Shown here: in pieces, positions 1,560 to 9,138 of the stretch | Numbering within the stretch: the first letter of the stretch is position 1 | Layout: every line of letters begins with the position of its first letter | Position numbers and translations under genes: made by a program | Notes under the pieces: model-generated | The model's database searches: none | What the model was told of the DNA's origin: nothing | What the model saw: only the letters and a program-made list of their open reading frames with translations | Assembly (NCBI RefSeq): GCF_004117855.1 | Contig: NZ_QWBW01000047.1 | Location: 1-37,912, forward strand | From: Modicisalibacter coralii | Lineage (GTDB): Bacteria > Pseudomonadota > Gammaproteobacteria > Pseudomonadales > Halomonadaceae | Length of the DNA: 37,912 bases | Direction of reading: 5' to 3'

Positions 1560-2591
1560 TCAGAGTGTCCGGTCGTCGACGCCGAAGGTCCTGGGCACGA
1601 ACCAGCCCACGTCGCGAAGGTCCCGTTCGATCAGATCCTCGACCTGAAGCAGGGTGGCGAAGATCGCCATGCGTACCGGGATGCCGTTGTCGGTCTGGCG
1701 GAAGATCGCCAGGCGCGGATCGCCGTTGAGGTCGACGTCGAGGTCGTTGGCGCCCGGCCGGCTGTCCCGCGGCAACGGGTGCATGACCACGGTGGTGGCG
1801 CTGCAGTGGCGGTCGAGGAACGCCTTGTCGACGCGGAAATCGTGCGAGACGCCGGCGAAGCTCTCCGAGAGCTCCTCGGTGAAGCGCTCCTTCTGGATGC
1901 GCGTGGTGTAGACCACGTCGAGGTCGCTGAAGTCGCTGTCGAGGCTCTCGCGCTCCTCGATGCGATGGCCGCGCGAGGCCACCAGATCGATCAGGTGGCG
2001 CGGCATCTCCAGCCCCGGCGGCGAGACCAGGGTGATGCGCAGCGGCTCGTAGAGCGACAGCAGCTTGATCAGCGAGTGCACGGTGCGCCCGTACTTGAGG
2101 TCCCCGGTGAGCAGCAGATGCGCGCCGGCCAGGTGCTTGCCGAGGCGGGTGAACTCCTTGTCGATGGTGTACAGATCGAGCAGCGCCTGGCTGGGGTGCT
2201 CGCCGGGCCCGTCGCCGCCGTTGATCACCGGCACGTTGACCGCCTCGGCGAACTCGGCCACCGAGCCCTGGTCGGGGTGGCGCATGACCAGGGCGTCGCA
2301 GTAGCCGCTCATCACCCGGCTGGTGTCGTAGAGCGACTCGCCCTTGGCCATCGACGAGAAGGTGAAACCGGTGGTGTCGCAGACGCTGCCGCCGAGCCGA
2401 CAGAAGGCGGCGTTGAAGCTGACCCGCGTGCGGGTGCTGGCCTCGAAGAACAGGTTGCCGAGCACCGCGCCCTCGAGCACCCGGGTGACCTTGCGGCGAC
2501 TGGCGATCGGTTCCATGCGGCCGGCAACACGCAGCAGATGATCGACCCAATCGCGGGACAGGGAGTCGACGGAAAGCAGGTGGGACGTCAT
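1560..2591 (-). CDS. pyrB: Aspartate carbamoyltransferase catalytic subunit
   Basis: This 343-residue enzyme joins carbamoyl phosphate to aspartate, the first committed step of pyrimidine synthesis. Carbamoyl-phosphate-binding STRTR lies at residues 52-56, the KGES catalytic loop near 83-86, HPSQ at 132-135 and HPLPR at 271-275. STRTR plus HPSQ favours aspartate over ornithine carbamoyltransferase. The protein is longer than the ~310-residue E. coli catalytic chain, with a C-terminal tail to GVDDRTL. No pyrI regulatory chain or inactive dihydroorotase (pyrC') lies beside it. In pseudomonads pyrB follows ruvX in the same direction with pyrC' behind it; here it faces ruvX. The cytosolic enzyme presumably works alone or with a partner coded elsewhere. 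Confidence 0.94.
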   Translation of the reverse strand: MTSHLLSVDSLSRDWVDHLLRVAGRMEPIASRRKVTRVLEGAVLGNLFFEASTRTRVSFNAAFCRLGGSVCDTTGFTFSSMAKGESLYDTSRVMSGYCDALVMRHPDQGSVAEFAEAVNVPVINGGDGPGEHPSQALLDLYTIDKEFTRLGKHLAGAHLLLTGDLKYGRTVHSLIKLLSLYEPLRITLVSPPGLEMPRHLIDLVASRGHRIEERESLDSDFSDLDVVYTTRIQKERFTEELSESFAGVSHDFRVDKAFLDRHCSATTVVMHPLPRDSRPGANDLDVDLNGDPRLAIFRQTDNGIPVRMAIFATLLQVEDLIERDLRDVGWFVPRTFGVDDRTL

Positions 2592-2760
2592 CGGCGTGGC
2601 CTCGCGGTCGGCTGGCGGAAAAGTTGCCCGCTAGTGTAACGGCCACGGGCGATGTCAGCACGTCGTCGATCGCTTGTCGGCCCCGCGGGGCGCTTCTATC
2701 TTGCAGTGATCGGCAGCGCCAGCGGAGTTGGCGCAATATGCACACACAGGAGTGACTGCC

Positions 2761-3615
2761 ATGACCGATCGCAAGCAACCGCCCCAGGAGCAGGACAAGC
2801 AACCCGGCGACGAACACGCCATGCGACCCGAGCCGGAATTCATCCGCGCCAGCTATCGCGGCACCGACAAGCTCGCCGGCAAGACGGCGATCATCACCGG
2901 TGGCGACAGCGGTATCGGCCGCGCCGTGGCGCTGCACTTCGCCCGCGAGGGCGCGGACTGCGTGCTCGCCTACCTCGACGAGGAGCACGATGCCGAGGAC
3001 ACCCGCGCGCTGGTCGAGGCCGAGGGGCGGCGCTGCGAGCTGATGCGCGGCGACGTCGGCGACCCCGGCTTCTGCCGCGAGGTCGTCGAGCGCGCCCGGG
3101 CGGTGTTCGGCGGTGTCAACATTCTGGTCAACAACGCCGCCGAGCAGCATGACTGGGACGACATCACCCAGATCCCCGACGAGCAGCTCACGCGCACCTT
3201 CCAGACCAACATCTTCAGCCATTTCTACCTGGCCAAGCTGGTGGTTCCGCTGATGGGCGAGGGCGATACCATCATCGCCACGTCCTCGGTCAACGCCTTC
3301 AAGGGCAACGACACGCTGATCGACTACTCGGCGACCAAGGGCGCCATCCAGGGGCTGGTACGCTCGCTGGCGCAGTCGCTGGTGGGGCGTGGCATCCGCG
3401 TCAACGCGGTGGCGCCGGGGCCGGTGTGGACGCCGCTGATCCCGGCCAGCTTCGACGAGGAGAAGGTCGCCGGCTTCGGCGGCCAGGTGCCGATGGACCG
3501 CGCCGGCCAGCCCAGCGAGATGGGGCCGGCCTACGTCTACCTGGCCAGCGAGGAATCTTCGTACATGACCGGCCAGACCCTGCACCTCAACGGCGGGGTG
3601 ATCCTCAACACCTGA
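2761..3615 (+). CDS. SDR family NAD(P)-dependent oxidoreductase (YghA-like)
   Basis: The 284-residue short-chain dehydrogenase starts at ATG 2761 with AGGAGTG at 2748-2754; a start at 2728 would add eleven residues without a ribosome site. Residues 1-40 form the polar N-terminal extension (many Gln/Pro/Glu) typical of the YghA/YhdF-type SDRs. Then come the Rossmann glycine motif TGGDSGIG (46-53), NNAA at 124-127, the catalytic Ser near 176, and YxxxK (Tyr189, Lys193). Members are often linked to general or osmotic stress, but the substrate is not readable from sequence. It stands alone between the divergent pyrB and the convergent iclR. The absence of a basic residue right after the glycine motif leaves NAD or NADP preference open. 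Confidence 0.9.
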   Translation: MTDRKQPPQEQDKQPGDEHAMRPEPEFIRASYRGTDKLAGKTAIITGGDSGIGRAVALHFAREGADCVLAYLDEEHDAEDTRALVEAEGRRCELMRGDVGDPGFCREVVERARAVFGGVNILVNNAAEQHDWDDITQIPDEQLTRTFQTNIFSHFYLAKLVVPLMGEGDTIIATSSVNAFKGNDTLIDYSATKGAIQGLVRSLAQSLVGRGIRVNAVAPGPVWTPLIPASFDEEKVAGFGGQVPMDRAGQPSEMGPAYVYLASEESSYMTGQTLHLNGGVILNT

Positions 3616-3623
3616 TCGGGGAG

Positions 3624-3653
3624 ACGGCGGCGATCAGTCCCGATCGCCGTCGT
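3624..3653. terminator. Terminator-like hairpin between SDR gene and iclR
   Basis: Arms 3624-3635 and 3642-3653 pair over 12 bases with one G-T wobble and a six-base loop. The hairpin begins eight bases after the SDR stop and covers the last codons and stop of the convergent iclR. It could end both transcripts, though no T-run follows. Confidence 0.55.
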
Positions 3654-4473
3654 CGGGGATCTGGCCGCCGACCTGGGTGGTGATCTCGCGCGCCGCGCGG
3701 CTGACCATGCCGCCCAGTTCCGCCAGCCGCGACTCGGGAATCCGCGCCACCGGACCGGAGACCGAGATCGCCGCCAGCGGGGCGCCGTGTTCGTCGTGCA
3801 GCGAGGCGGCCACGCAGTTGAGGCCGACGGCGTGTTCCTCGCGGTCGCAGGCATAGCCCTGGCGACGGATCTCGGCCAGGCTCTCGCGCAGCCGCGCCGG
3901 GGTGTCGAGGGTGTTGGGCGTGACCCGGTTGAGGCCGCGGCTCTGCAGGATGCGCTCGACCTCCTTGTCGGGCAGCCAGGCGAGCAGTGCCTTGCCCACG
4001 CCCGAGGCGTGCAGCGGCGCCCGGGAGCCGAGCCGGGTGATCATGCGCATCATCTGCGACGACTCGCTCTGGGCGAGAAACACCGCCATGCCCTCGTCGC
4101 GGATCGCCAGGTTGGCGGTCTCGCCGCTTTCCCGGGTGAGACGGCGCAGGAAGGGCCGCGCGGTGGCCACGAAGTCGCGCGCCTCGAGGAAGGTGTTGCC
4201 GATCTGGAAGGTCTTGACGCCGATCTTCCACAGGCCCAGCTCGCCATCGTGGGTGATGAAGCCCTGCTTGTGCAGTGCCTGCAGCAGGCGGTGCGTAGTG
4301 GAGGGGGCCAGGCCGACGATCTGGGCAATGTCGGACAGCCCCAGGCCGCTCGGCGCCGCCGCCAGCCCTTCGAGGATGTTGAGGCCGCGGACCAGTGACT
4401 GGCTGTGGCCGCCGGTGCTCTTGCCGGAGCCCGCCGGACGGCCGACTGGCTTGCGTTTGCTCTCTACTGTCAC
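3634..4473 (-). CDS. IclR family transcriptional regulator
   Basis: I place the start at the GTG whose complement is 4471-4473 (product VTVESKRKPVGRPAG), with a GGAG ribosome site about a dozen bases upstream; this gives 279 residues, a normal IclR length. The longer open frame to 4815 runs antisense through uraD. After a basic N-terminal arm there is a winged helix-turn-helix (about residues 24-90: SLVRGLNILEGLAA, LSDIAQIVGLAPSTTHRLLQALHKQGFI), then the IclR effector domain with the HASGVGKALLAWLP segment and CDREEHAVGLNCVAA. Effector domains of this type bind small organic acids. It lies 119 bp downstream of uraD on the same strand, so a ureide or allantoin-like effector is plausible (AllR is an IclR protein), but it could serve another pathway. 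Confidence 0.9.
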   Translation of the reverse strand: MTVESKRKPVGRPAGSGKSTGGHSQSLVRGLNILEGLAAAPSGLGLSDIAQIVGLAPSTTHRLLQALHKQGFITHDGELGLWKIGVKTFQIGNTFLEARDFVATARPFLRRLTRESGETANLAIRDEGMAVFLAQSESSQMMRMITRLGSRAPLHASGVGKALLAWLPDKEVERILQSRGLNRVTPNTLDTPARLRESLAEIRRQGYACDREEHAVGLNCVAASLHDEHGAPLAAISVSGPVARIPESRLAELGGMVSRAAREITTQVGGQIPDDGDRD

Positions 4474-4592
4474 GCCCCGTTCTCCGTAATCGACTCGATC
4501 TCTGGCGAACAAGGATACACACTCCCGCCAGGACTGTCCGCCGTCACGGAAACGACTTCCATTTCTCGCGCTCGGCTCGTCGGGCGGGCGTG

Positions 4593-5120
4593 TCAGCGGG
4601 CGACGCGGCCCTCCAGGCGCAGCCGGGCGATGCGATGGATCTGCTCGAGGGCGGTGCGCCGCTCCTCGTCGGGCGTGTGCTCCAGGCGGCGCTCGAAGGC
4701 GGCGAGGATCCGGTGGCGGTCGCTGCCCTTCACGGCCATCACGAAGGGAAAGTCGAAGCGCGCCTTGTAGGCGTCGTTGTAGCGGTGGAAGCGGGCGAAT
4801 TCCTCGGGACTGCACTGGTCGAGGCCGGCACCGGCCTGCTCGCGGGTCGAGTCGTCGGTCAGCTCGCCACGCTCGGCGGCCTTGCCGGCGAGGTCCGGGT
4901 GGGCGCGGATCACCGCCAGCTGGCGTGTTTCGGGGGCGGCGTCGAGCACCGCGGCCAGCGCCTCGCTCAGCCCCGCCGGCGTGTCATGGCGCTCGTCGAG
5001 GCCGGCATCCCAGGCCTGCTCGGCGATCCACGGGGAGTGTTCGTAGACGTCGCCGTAGCGGCGGACGAAGGTCTCGCGATCCAGCGTGCTGGGGCGGGGG
5101 TCCAGAATTTCCTCGGTCAT
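4593..5120 (-). CDS. uraD: 2-oxo-4-hydroxy-4-carboxy-5-ureidoimidazoline (OHCU) decarboxylase
   Basis: UraD performs the last step from urate to S-allantoin: it decarboxylates OHCU stereospecifically. The 175-residue length is typical. Diagnostic segments are FVRRYGDVYEHSPWIAEQAW near the N-terminus (with the conserved EHSPW), IRAHPDLAGKAA with the HPDLA motif, LDQCSPEEFARFHRYNDAY, and the FPFVMAVKG segment that lines the active site. The gene is divergent from uraH across a 180-bp AT-rich promoter region. UraH makes the OHCU substrate, so the pair channels the unstable product of urate oxidation. Cytosolic; no signal peptide. Confidence 0.95.
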   Translation of the reverse strand: MTEEILDPRPSTLDRETFVRRYGDVYEHSPWIAEQAWDAGLDERHDTPAGLSEALAAVLDAAPETRQLAVIRAHPDLAGKAAERGELTDDSTREQAGAGLDQCSPEEFARFHRYNDAYKARFDFPFVMAVKGSDRHRILAAFERRLEHTPDEERRTALEQIHRIARLRLEGRVAR

Positions 5121-5170
5121 GCGGCGCTCTCCTCGACGACGATCGGCGCCTCGCCGATCCGGTGGCTGAG

Positions 5171-5205
5171 ATTGTATGACACGATAGACTATAAACTGTA
5201 TACAA
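5171..5205. promoter_or_regulatory. Candidate GntR/FCD operator between uraD and uraH
   Basis: ATTGTAT (5171-5177) faces ATACAA (5200-5205) as a spaced inverted repeat, and the right part contains the palindromic core GTATAC (5198-5203). GTATACAA recurs at 7003-7010 just upstream of the gntR gene that closes this block. GTATAC cores are common in operators of FCD-type GntR regulators. The site is placed to act on both divergent genes. Confidence 0.5.
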
Positions 5206-5212
5206 AAAAATT

Positions 5213-5241
5213 TTGAAATGTCGTCTACTAACCGCTAAAAC
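5213..5241 (+). promoter_or_regulatory. Putative sigma70 promoter of uraH-puuD
   Basis: TTGAAA (5213-5218) and TAAAAC (5236-5241) are separated by 17 bases and stand directly downstream of the GTATACAA site. Transcription would begin about 50 bases before the uraH start. The -35 box is near consensus and the -10 box matches four of six. Confidence 0.45.
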
Positions 5242-5300
5242 TGTTTTTGTGCCTGCGGCTCTCGTCGCCGCCCGACATCTTGCTCCAGGAGACCTAGCCG

Positions 5301-5654
5301 ATGGGACGCCTTACCACACACGTCTTGGATACCGCGCGTGGTGCCCCCGGGCGCGAACTGCGCATCGAGATCTTCCGCCTCGACGGCGAGGAGCGGGTCC
5401 GCCTCGGCGAGGTGATCACCAACGACGACGGTCGCTGCGACGCACCGCTCCTCGAGGGCGAGGCCTTCACCGAAGGCGAATACGAACTGCTGTTCCACGC
5501 CGGCGACTACCTGGACGCCCATGACGCGCCCGGCACCGCGCCCCGCTTTCTCGATCGCATTCCCCTGCGCTTCGGCGTCGCCGACGCCAGCCAGCACTAC
5601 CATGTGCCGCTGCTGCTCTCGCCGTTCGGGTATTCGACCTACCGCGGCAGTTGA
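5301..5654 (+). CDS. uraH: 5-hydroxyisourate hydrolase (transthyretin-like)
   Basis: UraH hydrolyses 5-hydroxyisourate, the immediate product of urate oxidation, to OHCU. The 117-residue chain begins [11 protein letters not shown] with active-site His7, has the conserved arginine Arg45 in NDDGRC, the His99/His101 pair in [12 protein letters not shown], and ends in the signature tetrapeptide YRGS. An AGGAGA ribosome site lies at 5286-5291. No signal peptide, so it acts in the cytosol, as most bacterial copies do. It is followed 50 bp later by puuD and lies opposite uraD, putting urate oxidase, hydrolase and decarboxylase side by side. Confidence 0.96.
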
Positions 5655-5704: not shown

Positions 5705-6844
5705 ATGGAAGCGTACCTTCTCGACTTCGGAAACATGCTGCTGCGCTGGCTGCACGTCATCGCGGCGATCGCCTGGATCGGCGAATCGATCTACTTCGTC
5801 ATGCTCGACAACGGGCTGCGTACCCCCAAGGCCGCCGAGGACCGTGACAAGGGCGTCTTCGGCGAGATGTGGGCGGTCCATGGCGGCGGTTTCTATCACA
5901 ACCAGAAATACGCCAGCGCCCCGGCCAAGCTCCCCGAGGACCTGCACTGGTCGTTCTGGAAAGCCTATACCACCTGGCTGTCCGGGTTCGGGCTGTTCCT
6001 GCTGCTGTACATGTCCAAGCCGGACTTCTACCTGATCAACCACTCCAGCGACTGGGCCTGGGCGGCGAATCTCGCCGGCTGGCAGGCCAATCTGGTGGCG
6101 CTGGCCTTCCTGCTCGGCGGCTGGGTGGTCTACAACGAGCTGTGCAAGCGCATCAGCCCCAACATGACCCGCGACGGGATTCTCAGCCTGGCGGTGGCGG
6201 TGATGATGATCGTCGTGGCCTACCTGAGCACGCACATCTTCTCGGGGCGCGCGGCCTTCCTGCTGACCGGCGCGGTGATGGCCACCGCCATGTCGGCCAA
6301 CGTGTTCTTCTGGATCATTCCCGGCCAGCGACGCATGGTCAAGGCGATGAAGGCCGGCGAGACGCCGGACCCGCTCGACGGCAAGCGCGGCAAGCAGCGT
6401 TCGGTGCACAACACCTACTTCACGCTGCCGGTGGTGTTCCTGATGCTCAGCAACCACTACTCGTTCACCTACTCGCATCCCAATGCCTGGGTGATCATGG
6501 TGCTGTTCATCTTCGCCGGGGCGCTGATCCGCCAGTTCTTCGTGCTGATGCACAGCGGCCAGATCAAGCCGGCCTATCCGGTCGCCGGCGCGGCGCTGAT
6601 CCTGCTCGCGGTGTGGGTCGCCATGCCGGTGTCCTCGACGCCGTCGGCCGACGGCGAGGGTGTCGCCTCGGCCGAGGACAGCCGGGACACGGCGAGCGCC
6701 ACCCCGCAAGCGTCTGACGACGTGGCGGCCGGCGGTCCGCACCGCCGGCCGGCGTGGCGTTCGACGACGCGGCGCAGATCAAGCGGCAGATGGAGCAGAT
6801 CCAGCAGGTGGTGGCCAGCGGCTACATGCCGCTGGGCAACCTGA
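5705..6844 (+). CDS. puuD: Membrane urate oxidase PuuD, membrane domain intact, cytochrome c tail frameshifted
   Basis: The N-terminal ~300 residues match the PuuD/DUF989 membrane domain that oxidises urate: LRWLHVIAAIAWIGESIYF opens the first membrane segment, followed by the conserved AVHGGGFYHNQKYA and about eight hydrophobic segments up to LILLAVWVAMP. Complete PuuD proteins continue into a periplasmic cytochrome c domain with a CxxCH heme site. Here the frame runs through a Ser/Ala/Asp-rich linker into Arg-rich nonsense after about codon 345 and stops at 6842-6844, while the true C-terminus continues in another frame (6751-6894). No Cys-x-x-Cys-His exists in any frame nearby. The membrane domain may still be made, but electrons could not pass through its own heme. 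A base-calling or assembly error cannot be excluded. No clear ribosome site precedes the ATG; coupling to uraH is possible. Confidence 0.85.
   Translation: MEAYLLDFGNMLLRWLHVIAAIAWIGESIYFVMLDNGLRTPKAAEDRDKGVFGEMWAVHGGGFYHNQKYASAPAKLPEDLHWSFWKAYTTWLSGFGLFLLLYMSKPDFYLINHSSDWAWAANLAGWQANLVALAFLLGGWVVYNELCKRISPNMTRDGILSLAVAVMMIVVAYLSTHIFSGRAAFLLTGAVMATAMSANVFFWIIPGQRRMVKAMKAGETPDPLDGKRGKQRSVHNTYFTLPVVFLMLSNHYSFTYSHPNAWVIMVLFIFAGALIRQFFVLMHSGQIKPAYPVAGAALILLAVWVAMPVSSTPSADGEGVASAEDSRDTASATPQASDDVAAGGPHRRPAWRSTTRRRSSGRWSRSSRWWPAATCRWAT
6726..6751. repeat. Perfect inverted repeat at the puuD break point
   Basis: Eleven-base arms (6726-6736 and 6741-6751) flank a four-base loop with no mismatch. It lies exactly where the puuD reading frame switches and where the heme-binding segment should be. 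Such hairpins promote deletion by replication slippage and also cause sequencing artefacts. Confidence 0.85.
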
Positions 6845-6894
6845 CCGAGATGACCGATCAGGAACGCCAGGCGATCGCCGCCTGGGGGCAGTGA
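6751..6894 (+). pseudogene. Out-of-frame remnant of the PuuD cytochrome c domain
   Basis: In the +1 frame the DNA reads GVAFDDAAQIKRQMEQIQ, then SGYMPLGNLTEMTDQE and a final AIAAWGQ before TGA at 6892-6894. This is the normal end of a PuuD cytochrome c domain, where the Met of MPLGNLT is the expected axial heme ligand. It has lost its link to the membrane domain: upstream in the same frame there is a stop at 6715-6717, and about twenty codons that should carry CxxCH are missing. The preserved sequence suggests a recent event. Confidence 0.75.
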
Positions 6895-7002: not shown

Positions 7003-7010
7003 GTATACAA
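7003..7010. promoter_or_regulatory. GTATACAA site upstream of gntR
   Basis: This is the same octamer as in the uraD-uraH intergenic region (5198-5205), 38 bases before the gntR start codon. It would fit autoregulation by the encoded FCD regulator. Confidence 0.45.
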
Positions 7011-7048
7011 TGGTTGCATCGACGAATTCTGATACGGGGATCTCGAGC

Positions 7049-7804
7049 ATGAGCGAACGCCAGCAAGCGCCGGGCAATGCCAGCGCGGCGGCTCACGGTG
7101 AACCGGCGAAGCGCCGACGCGGCAAGAACGGCGACGGCGCGCAGCGCCACGATGCCATCTATCGCACCATCAGCGACGCGATCATCGAGCATCGCCTGCG
7201 TCCCGGTGCGCGGCTGCGCGAGGATGCCCTGGCCGAGGTGTTCGGGGTCAGCCGCACCGGAATCCGCAAGATCCTCCAGCGGCTCGCTCACGAGCACCTG
7301 GTGACGCTCACCCCGCGTCGCGGTGCCAGTGTCACCCGGCCCACCGCCGAGGAGGCGCGCGACGTGTTCGCGGCGCGCCAGATGGTCGAGTGCGGGATCA
7401 TGGAGGCCGTCGCCCGGCGGATCACCGCCAATGACGTGCGCCATCTGCGTGACCTGGCCGGCCGCGAACGCCAGGCGCTCAGGGGGGGCGAGCAGAGCAC
7501 CGCGATCAAGCTGTCGGCGGCATTCCACGAGTATCTGGCCCAGCTTTCCGGAAACGCCACCCTGGCGGAGTTCATCGGGCGGCTGTGTTCGCGTTCCTCG
7601 CTGATTCTCGCCGTCTACGGCTCCGCCGGGCACCTGGGCTGCGAGTCCCATGACCACGACGAGTTGATCAAACATCTCGAGGCGCGGCGCGGCGAGCGGG
7701 CCACCGCCTTCATGGGGCGCCACCTCAAGGCGATCGAGGCCTCGCTGTCGATCGAGGAGGAGCAGGAGGAGACCCCCGACCTGCGCCAGATATTCGCCCT
7801 GTGA
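7049..7804 (+). CDS. GntR family transcriptional regulator, FCD subfamily
   Basis: The start is ATG 7049, with GGGGA eight bases upstream; an ATG at 7010 overlaps the candidate operator and is less likely. The 251-residue protein has a basic, disordered N-terminus (AKRRRGKN), a GntR winged helix at about residues 35-100 (IYRTISDAIIEHRLRPGARL, LAEVFGVSRTGIRKILQRL), then an all-helical FCD effector domain including FAARQMVECGIMEAVARR, AAFHEYLAQLSGN and HDELIKHLEARRGERA, whose Asp/His residues normally hold a metal and a carboxylate ligand. It follows the urate genes in the same direction. Together with the shared GTATACAA sites this makes it the best candidate regulator of urate degradation. 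The effector is unknown. Confidence 0.88.
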   Translation: MSERQQAPGNASAAAHGEPAKRRRGKNGDGAQRHDAIYRTISDAIIEHRLRPGARLREDALAEVFGVSRTGIRKILQRLAHEHLVTLTPRRGASVTRPTAEEARDVFAARQMVECGIMEAVARRITANDVRHLRDLAGRERQALRGGEQSTAIKLSAAFHEYLAQLSGNATLAEFIGRLCSRSSLILAVYGSAGHLGCESHDHDELIKHLEARRGERATAFMGRHLKAIEASLSIEEEQEETPDLRQIFAL

Positions 7805-7988: not shown

Positions 7989-8024
7989 AAGGGCCTGCGA
8001 GTGATCGCAGGCCCTTCTTCTTTC
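7989..8024 (+). terminator. Rho-independent terminator of the tRNA-Arg gene
   Basis: A perfect 12-bp stem (7989-8000 with 8005-8016) closes a GTGA loop and is followed by the pyrimidine tract CTTCTTTCCC. It begins nine bases after the tRNA CCA end. Confidence 0.9.
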
Positions 8025-8088: not shown

Positions 8089-9138
8089 TCAGGCCTTGTC
8101 ACCCAGGGCGGTGATATGTTCCGGCAAGCGATCGTGGGAGCCGTACATGAAGTGGTTCTCCATGCGCTCCGCAAATTGGGCGGCTTCCGGTTCACGCCCC
8201 ACCGCCATGGCCACTTCGCGCACGTGCATCGGCGATGCCCCGCAGCATACGCCGAGGTAATTGACCCCCAGGGCATGAACGTCGCGCGCAAAGGCGCCGA
8301 GCTCGTAACGGTTGCAGAACAGCGGGTCCAGGGCGGTCGGGAAGGCGCGTCCGTGGGGCGCCGGACAGCTGCATCCCTGATTGTCGGAGAGGTTGAAGAA
8401 CGTCGGCTCCTGCTCGGTGGTGCGATAGGTCACCGGCAGTGCCGCCACATGGCAGGTAACGGCGTCGCGAATCTGCTGGATCCAGGGGCGCATGGTGTCC
8501 GGCCCCCGGAAGCAGTTCAGGCCGACCACGCTGGCGCCCTGCTGCTCGAGGGCGACACAGGTTTCCACGATACCGGGGCCATCGACCATGCGGTTCTCGG
8601 CCATCGGTGCCAGGGTGACCACGGCAGGCAGCCCCTGGGCCTTGATCGCTGCCAGGGCCGCTTCGGCTTCGCCGGCATAATAGAAGGTTTCCGCGATGAT
8701 GAAATCGGCGCCTTCCTCGACGGCCCATTGCACCATCTCGTCGAACATGGCGCGCACGCTCTGCTGGGCGGCCGGATCTTCCGGGTCCCAGACGTTGCTG
8801 TTGGAAATGTTGCCGGCCATCAGGTTGCCGGGTTTTTCATCGGCCACCTTGCGAGCGATCTTCAACGCAGCCCGGTTCAGTGGTTCCAGCAGTTCCTCCT
8901 TGCCGATCACCCGCATTTTTTCGCGGTGGCCGTTGTAGGTGAACGCCTGAACGACATCCGACCCCGCATGCTGGAAATCGCGATGCAGCGCTTCCAGCGC
9001 GTCCGGGCGCAACAGCGCCACTTCGGGCACGAACTCACCGGCGGAGAGATAACCGCGCCGTTCGAGCTCGAACAGAAAGCCCTCGGCACAGATCAGGGGG
9101 CCCTGGTCGAGTCGTTGGGTGATCAGGTCTTGCGTCAT
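8089..9138 (-). CDS. Homocysteine S-methyltransferase family protein, betaine-homocysteine methyltransferase-like
   Basis: The 349-residue barrel protein has the three zinc cysteines of the family: Cys209 in GLNC, and Cys298-Cys299 in GVCCGA, at nearly the same positions as in animal betaine-homocysteine methyltransferase. Other matches are AEGFLFELERRGYLS, VVQAFTYNGHREKM, MAGNISNSNVW and IIAETFYYAGEAEAAL. Such enzymes move a methyl group from betaine, dimethylsulfoniopropionate or S-methylmethionine to homocysteine to form methionine. Betaine as donor would suit a halophile that accumulates it, but the donor cannot be fixed from sequence. The gene stands alone, so no operon hint is available. 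Cytosolic. Confidence 0.87.
   Translation of the reverse strand: MTQDLITQRLDQGPLICAEGFLFELERRGYLSAGEFVPEVALLRPDALEALHRDFQHAGSDVVQAFTYNGHREKMRVIGKEELLEPLNRAALKIARKVADEKPGNLMAGNISNSNVWDPEDPAAQQSVRAMFDEMVQWAVEEGADFIIAETFYYAGEAEAALAAIKAQGLPAVVTLAPMAENRMVDGPGIVETCVALEQQGASVVGLNCFRGPDTMRPWIQQIRDAVTCHVAALPVTYRTTEQEPTFFNLSDNQGCSCPAPHGRAFPTALDPLFCNRYELGAFARDVHALGVNYLGVCCGASPMHVREVAMAVGREPEAAQFAERMENHFMYGSHDRLPEHITALGDKA

Follow-up and report, generated by a model that had tools for sequence, protein, structure and literature searches.

The gene puuD, which encodes a urate oxidase, is interrupted in the window, by which we mean the whole analysed stretch of 37,912 nucleotides. Its membrane domain is followed by a shift of the reading frame at a perfect inverted repeat, and the heme-binding CxxCH motif is missing. 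This gene is probably a recent loss-of-function allele, created by a deletion associated with the hairpin. That the living strain carries this deletion, how it arose, and that activity is lost are inferred from the assembled sequence. The main rival to a recently broken puuD is an artefact of amplification, sequencing or contig joining.

Results

The features of the locus, listed by position, are:

3634..4815, minus strand: IclR-family regulator beside the cluster, start codon uncertain (Pfam IclR_C and HTH_IclR)
4593..5120, minus strand: OHCU decarboxylase, intact (Pfam PF09349, E 5.7e-50)
5301..5654, plus strand: 5-hydroxyisourate hydrolase (HIUase), intact (Pfam Transthyretin/HIUase PF00576, E 4.7e-35)
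5705..6736, plus strand: puuD frame 0 with start, Urate_ox_N/DUF989 membrane domain and beginning of the linker (Pfam PF06181 match)
6726..6751, no strand: perfect inverted repeat, 11-nt arms, 4-nt loop (exact match, rarity, fold)
6736..6894, plus strand: end of the PuuD cytochrome c domain in another frame, MPLGNLT present, CxxCH absent (similarity to the tail of L003)
6737..6844, plus strand: 35 out-of-frame Arg-rich codons and a stop, which now close the puuD frame (translation)
7010..7804, plus strand: GntR/FCD-family regulator, downstream (Pfam GntR and FCD)

The reading frame of puuD

The puuD ORF (5705-6844, plus strand) comprises 379 codons for amino acids. Residues 3-305 match positions 1-293 of the 295 positions of the Urate_ox_N profile (PF06181) with 409 bits; the membrane domain is thus near-complete, as a preliminary description of this DNA had claimed. 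Residues 1-317 are about 90% identical to the PuuD proteins L003 and L083, and the closest PuuD among the best 80 of 588 relatives is that of Halomonadaceae bacterium T82-2 (L003, 90%). Judged from puuD, the host is most likely a Modicisalibacter of the Halomonadaceae. A Pfam profile search of the ORF gave no cytochrome domain at an E-value of 0.001, and a scan of its translation gave no CxxCH motif. The frame breaks near position 6736, which bears out the frameshift and the loss of the motif proposed earlier. The 35 Arg-rich residues that lead to the stop codon of the shifted frame (6842-6844) have no counterpart in the PuuD tails of the relatives.

The end of the cytochrome domain survives in a different frame, as had been described. 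It consists of 52 codons (6736-6891) followed by TGA (6892-6894) and is 73% identical to the corresponding end of L003, the nearest relative. The methionine heme ligand (MPLGNLT) is therefore encoded in the frame that closes at 6894 and not in the puuD frame, which closes at 6844. At all 17 positions which are conserved in more than 90% of 84 distinct relatives, the tail has kept the conserved residue; because these residues are still present, the break is either recent or an artefact. The median pN/pS value of the tail versus the relatives is 0.49, which is above 77 of the 84 intact tails and inside their range of 0.28-0.90; this somewhat raised value is weak evidence at best for a real relaxation. 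A comparison with L083 gave synonymous differences of 0.19 for the membrane domain (window 5705-6604) and 0.46 for the tail (6736-6891); intragenic recombination or uneven constraint could account for this unevenness.

Frame 0 and the frame of the tail overlap by a single base, T6736, and from their relative position it follows that the length of the missing segment must be 1 modulo 3. The linker reads ASDDTVAAAGSVGEIHAIIEQRCVSCH in L005 and ASDDVAAGG in the window. In those relatives whose linkers are similar (L004, L005, L007 and L008, among 12 relatives compared), about 26 codons lie between the GG- or AG-like linker end and the residue that aligns with the serine of SAPPAGV. Counted from the first cysteine of CxxCH, the same residue lies 14 positions away in 87 of the 91 relatives and 15 away in the remaining 4. 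The spacing of about 26 codons and the one-base overlap give a missing length of about 79 nt; the best estimate compared with the relatives is 76-79 nt, with a plausible range of 73-82 nt. The segment that should carry CxxCH is hence absent, as the preliminary description had stated; its size of about 20 codons or 60-70 bases was set too small.

The inverted repeat at the junction

The repeat at 6726-6751 had been described as perfect, with 11-bp arms and a 4-base loop, and this is exact: The arms are 6726-6736 and 6741-6751, the loop is 6737-6740, and the surrounding sequence has a GC content of 71%. Within 461,538 bp of the genome there are 26 perfect repeats whose arms measure at least 11 nt and whose loop measures 3-8 nt; three order-1 Markov sequences contained 3, 4 and 3 repeats of this class. 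Only 0.092% of the positions are at most 8 nt away from the centre of any of the other 25 repeats. Moreover, single-stranded DNA of positions 6700-6775 folds better than shuffled sequences (z = -2.76; 4 of 200 shuffles folded as well). Given the rarity of the repeat and the fold relative to shuffles, a coincidence of hairpin and junction by chance is unlikely, according to an estimate which is post hoc.

No conserved hairpin flanks the CxxCH motif in the 91 relatives; the longest arms there have 5-9 nt, compared with 4-10 nt in shuffled sequences. The right arm of the repeat, which belongs to conserved coding sequence (APPAG), probably represents ancestral sequence. The left arm falls within the hypervariable linker; it may likewise be ancestral or may stem from a template switch. 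The 18-nt direct repeats at 6710 and 6757 were considered as the endpoints of a deletion, and this was rejected, as both copies are still present.

Two further perfect hairpins of the window are stronger than the junction repeat and are placed as terminators would be. One (1509-1548, 18-nt arms, 4-nt loop) is located just downstream of an OTCase-like ORF (1560-2591, minus strand), the other (7989-8016, 12-nt arms, 4-nt loop) just downstream of an S-methyltransferase ORF (8089-9138, minus strand).

Quality of the assembly

If the gap were an artefact, the living strain would possess an intact puuD, and the segment would have been lost at the GC-rich hairpin during amplification, sequencing or contig joining. 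We regard this explanation as unlikely, though it deserves to be taken seriously. It agrees with the position of the junction at a perfect hairpin in sequence of 71% GC, with the conserved tail, with the retention of a urate oxidase of the searched kinds in the 13 further genomes from the genus, and with the state of the genome, which is a draft of 74 contigs (4.44 Mb). On the other hand, the genome has a completeness rating of 99.99% and a contamination rating of 0.13%, and the following control speaks against the artefact.

We took ORFs of at least 100 amino acids from 400 kb of sequence of the relative G011 and looked for them in 461,538 bp of the window genome. Matches were obtained for 148 non-overlapping ORFs; after dropping 39 with less than 65% identity, 109 were scored, and 96 of these were whole and 13 partial. 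The partial cases were inspected by eye. Eight (549, 309, 902, 876, 1100, 292, 271 and 139) turned out to be intact genes whose start had been called too far upstream in G011, two (718 and 344) are genes cut at contig ends, and two (665 and 918) are spurious. Judged in this way, puuD is the only clearly internally broken gene among the 109 ORFs, and the idea of an assembly ridden with frameshifts was consequently rejected. In addition, the remaining 25 perfect hairpins of this class were assembled in the 461,538 bp; two of them lie inside conserved coding sequence and one has arms of 18 nt. The control counts against a generally poor assembly and is compatible with a local error.

A search of the assembly for a detached PuuD cytochrome or the missing segment found neither, which also argues against an artefact, albeit with the little power of a 31-residue query. 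Two weak matches to the segment (E-values of 0.66 and 1.4) were rejected, since as far as their frames show they are not PuuD-related cytochromes; one of them is a 904-codon open frame with a chance-like CYPCH. A search of viral contigs and plasmids for a closer copy of the locus gave only distant matches with 49% and 78% identity to part of the query.

Urate degradation in the genome and the genus

Xanthine dehydrogenase XdhB is encoded at full length on contig C6. The 74 contigs contain neither a second PuuD nor a uricase nor an HpxO above the cut-off of 500 bits. The PuuD membrane domain occurs in 12 of the 14 genomes of the genus, the window genome included, and all 11 others of these possess CxxCH. 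The tail of PuuD from one of them (L085 of G003) is the same as that of Modicisalibacter muralis (L002). The two genomes without PuuD, G008 and G013, have an HpxO above the cut-off and have kept OHCU decarboxylase, which is found in 14 of 14 genomes; judged from gene content, one urate oxidase has here been displaced by another within the genus. With PuuD, uricase and HpxO searched, the window genome is the only one of the 14 in which no apparently working urate oxidase was found.

This displacement in two of 14 genus members lends some plausibility to the assumption that a urate oxidase of a kind outside our search took over in the window genome as well, which would be compatible with a deletion in puuD. 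We consider such a takeover improbable, as the genome has no uricase and its three matches to the HpxO profile are partial and weak; the best has 36.8 bits, and similar weak matches occur throughout the genus.

CxxCH in related PuuD proteins

The alignment to PuuD genes of relatives, which the preliminary description had suggested as a check, drew on 80 loci, the best among 588 relatives detected, and on 11 further loci, all of them outside the window, with some genomes occurring twice across collections. CxxCH is present in all 91 of these relatives, which have 84 distinct tails, and none has the Arg-rich tail of the window. An order-wide search detected PF06181 in 159 of 293 genomes, many short DUF989 proteins included; in 20 order-level stretches picked by hand, all 20 full-length PuuD proteins contained CxxCH. 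These sequences indicate that a puuD without CxxCH is abnormal for the family. This agrees with passages of PMC4562309, which describe CXXCH as strictly conserved across all PuuD sequences, regard the cytochrome as probably essential, and cite a ccmC mutant that is unable to use purines.

Two other loci are mentioned as observations in their own right. Within L146 (G141:C1:3253000-3262000), a DUF989 paralogue of 258 amino acids without CxxCH (4686-5462, minus strand), 30.5% identical to the PuuD of the window, is located about 1.4 kb from an intact PuuD of 414 amino acids (2070-3314, plus strand). The match to PF06181 at G098:C577:1054-1743 contains one in-frame TAG and is possibly another broken puuD.

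The preliminary description had also raised the possibility that electrons are passed to a separate cytochrome. Although the membrane domain is intact and the short paralogue in G141 shows that a DUF989 protein without cytochrome can stand beside an intact PuuD, it is very improbable that the membrane domain still oxidizes urate with an acceptor or cytochrome in trans, given that every full-length PuuD checked has a fused CxxCH, in line with the cited parts of PMC4562309, that a search of the genome for a detached PuuD cytochrome segment found none, that the new tail arose from a frame shift and does not end the protein cleanly, and that the old tail is still recognizable and would have left little time for adaptation.

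Discussion

The preliminary description had left the choice between a recent hairpin-driven deletion and an artefact. The controls favour a real recent deletion without proving it: puuD is the only clearly broken gene among the 109 ORFs, its tail is conserved, and its neighbours in the urate pathway are intact. Several points weigh against the deletion. It is known from one assembly of a single strain, and its loss of urate oxidase would be unusual, given that all 13 further members of the genus have an apparently working one of a searched kind; the near-intact tail would equally fit an artefact. Finally, a prior hairpin has to be assumed, and the arms around CxxCH in the relatives have at most 9 nt, like those in shuffled sequences.

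If the deletion is real, it would have removed about 76-79 nt, which encoded the helix preceding the heme site, CxxCH and the subsequent loop, and the same event would have displaced what remains of the cytochrome domain from its reading frame. The event was probably guided by DNA able to form a hairpin, and two routes can be envisaged. The inverted arms may already have flanked the lost segment, such that replication skipped the loop. Alternatively, the polymerase may have switched templates, copying the right arm in inverted form to create the left arm and jumping over the segment at the same time. Either route would yield a heme-less protein composed of the membrane domain and a meaningless Arg-rich tail. 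The strain is predicted to make urate yet to be unable to oxidize it, so that HIUase and OHCU decarboxylase would lack the substrate they normally receive.

With a real deletion, the strain would be a puuD null of natural origin, within a genus in which each of the 13 further genomes searched retains a known kind of urate oxidase, and one small event linked to a hairpin would have taken out the heme site. In case of an artefact, the annotation of this assembly wrongly shows a loss of urate oxidation. In either case, the understanding of PuuD is little changed. A functional split enzyme would be notable, since it would put the need for the cytochrome to a natural test, yet nothing supports such an enzyme.

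Comparison with known systems

Template switching at quasipalindromes has been described in E. coli, according to passages of PMC7202029. The junction in the window resembles such mutations in being located at an inverted repeat with perfect arms. It differs from what these passages describe by a net loss of about 76-79 nt.

The protein family itself is PuuD (COG3748; PF06181 with a C-terminal cytochrome c), as outlined in parts of Doniselli et al. 2015 (PMC4562309). The gene of the window deviates from the family described there by its lack of CxxCH and by the out-of-frame position of what remains of the cytochrome domain. It nevertheless shares with this family the full-length DUF989 membrane domain, the adjoining genes for HIUase and OHCU decarboxylase, and a recognizable cytochrome tail with the Met-ligand motif.
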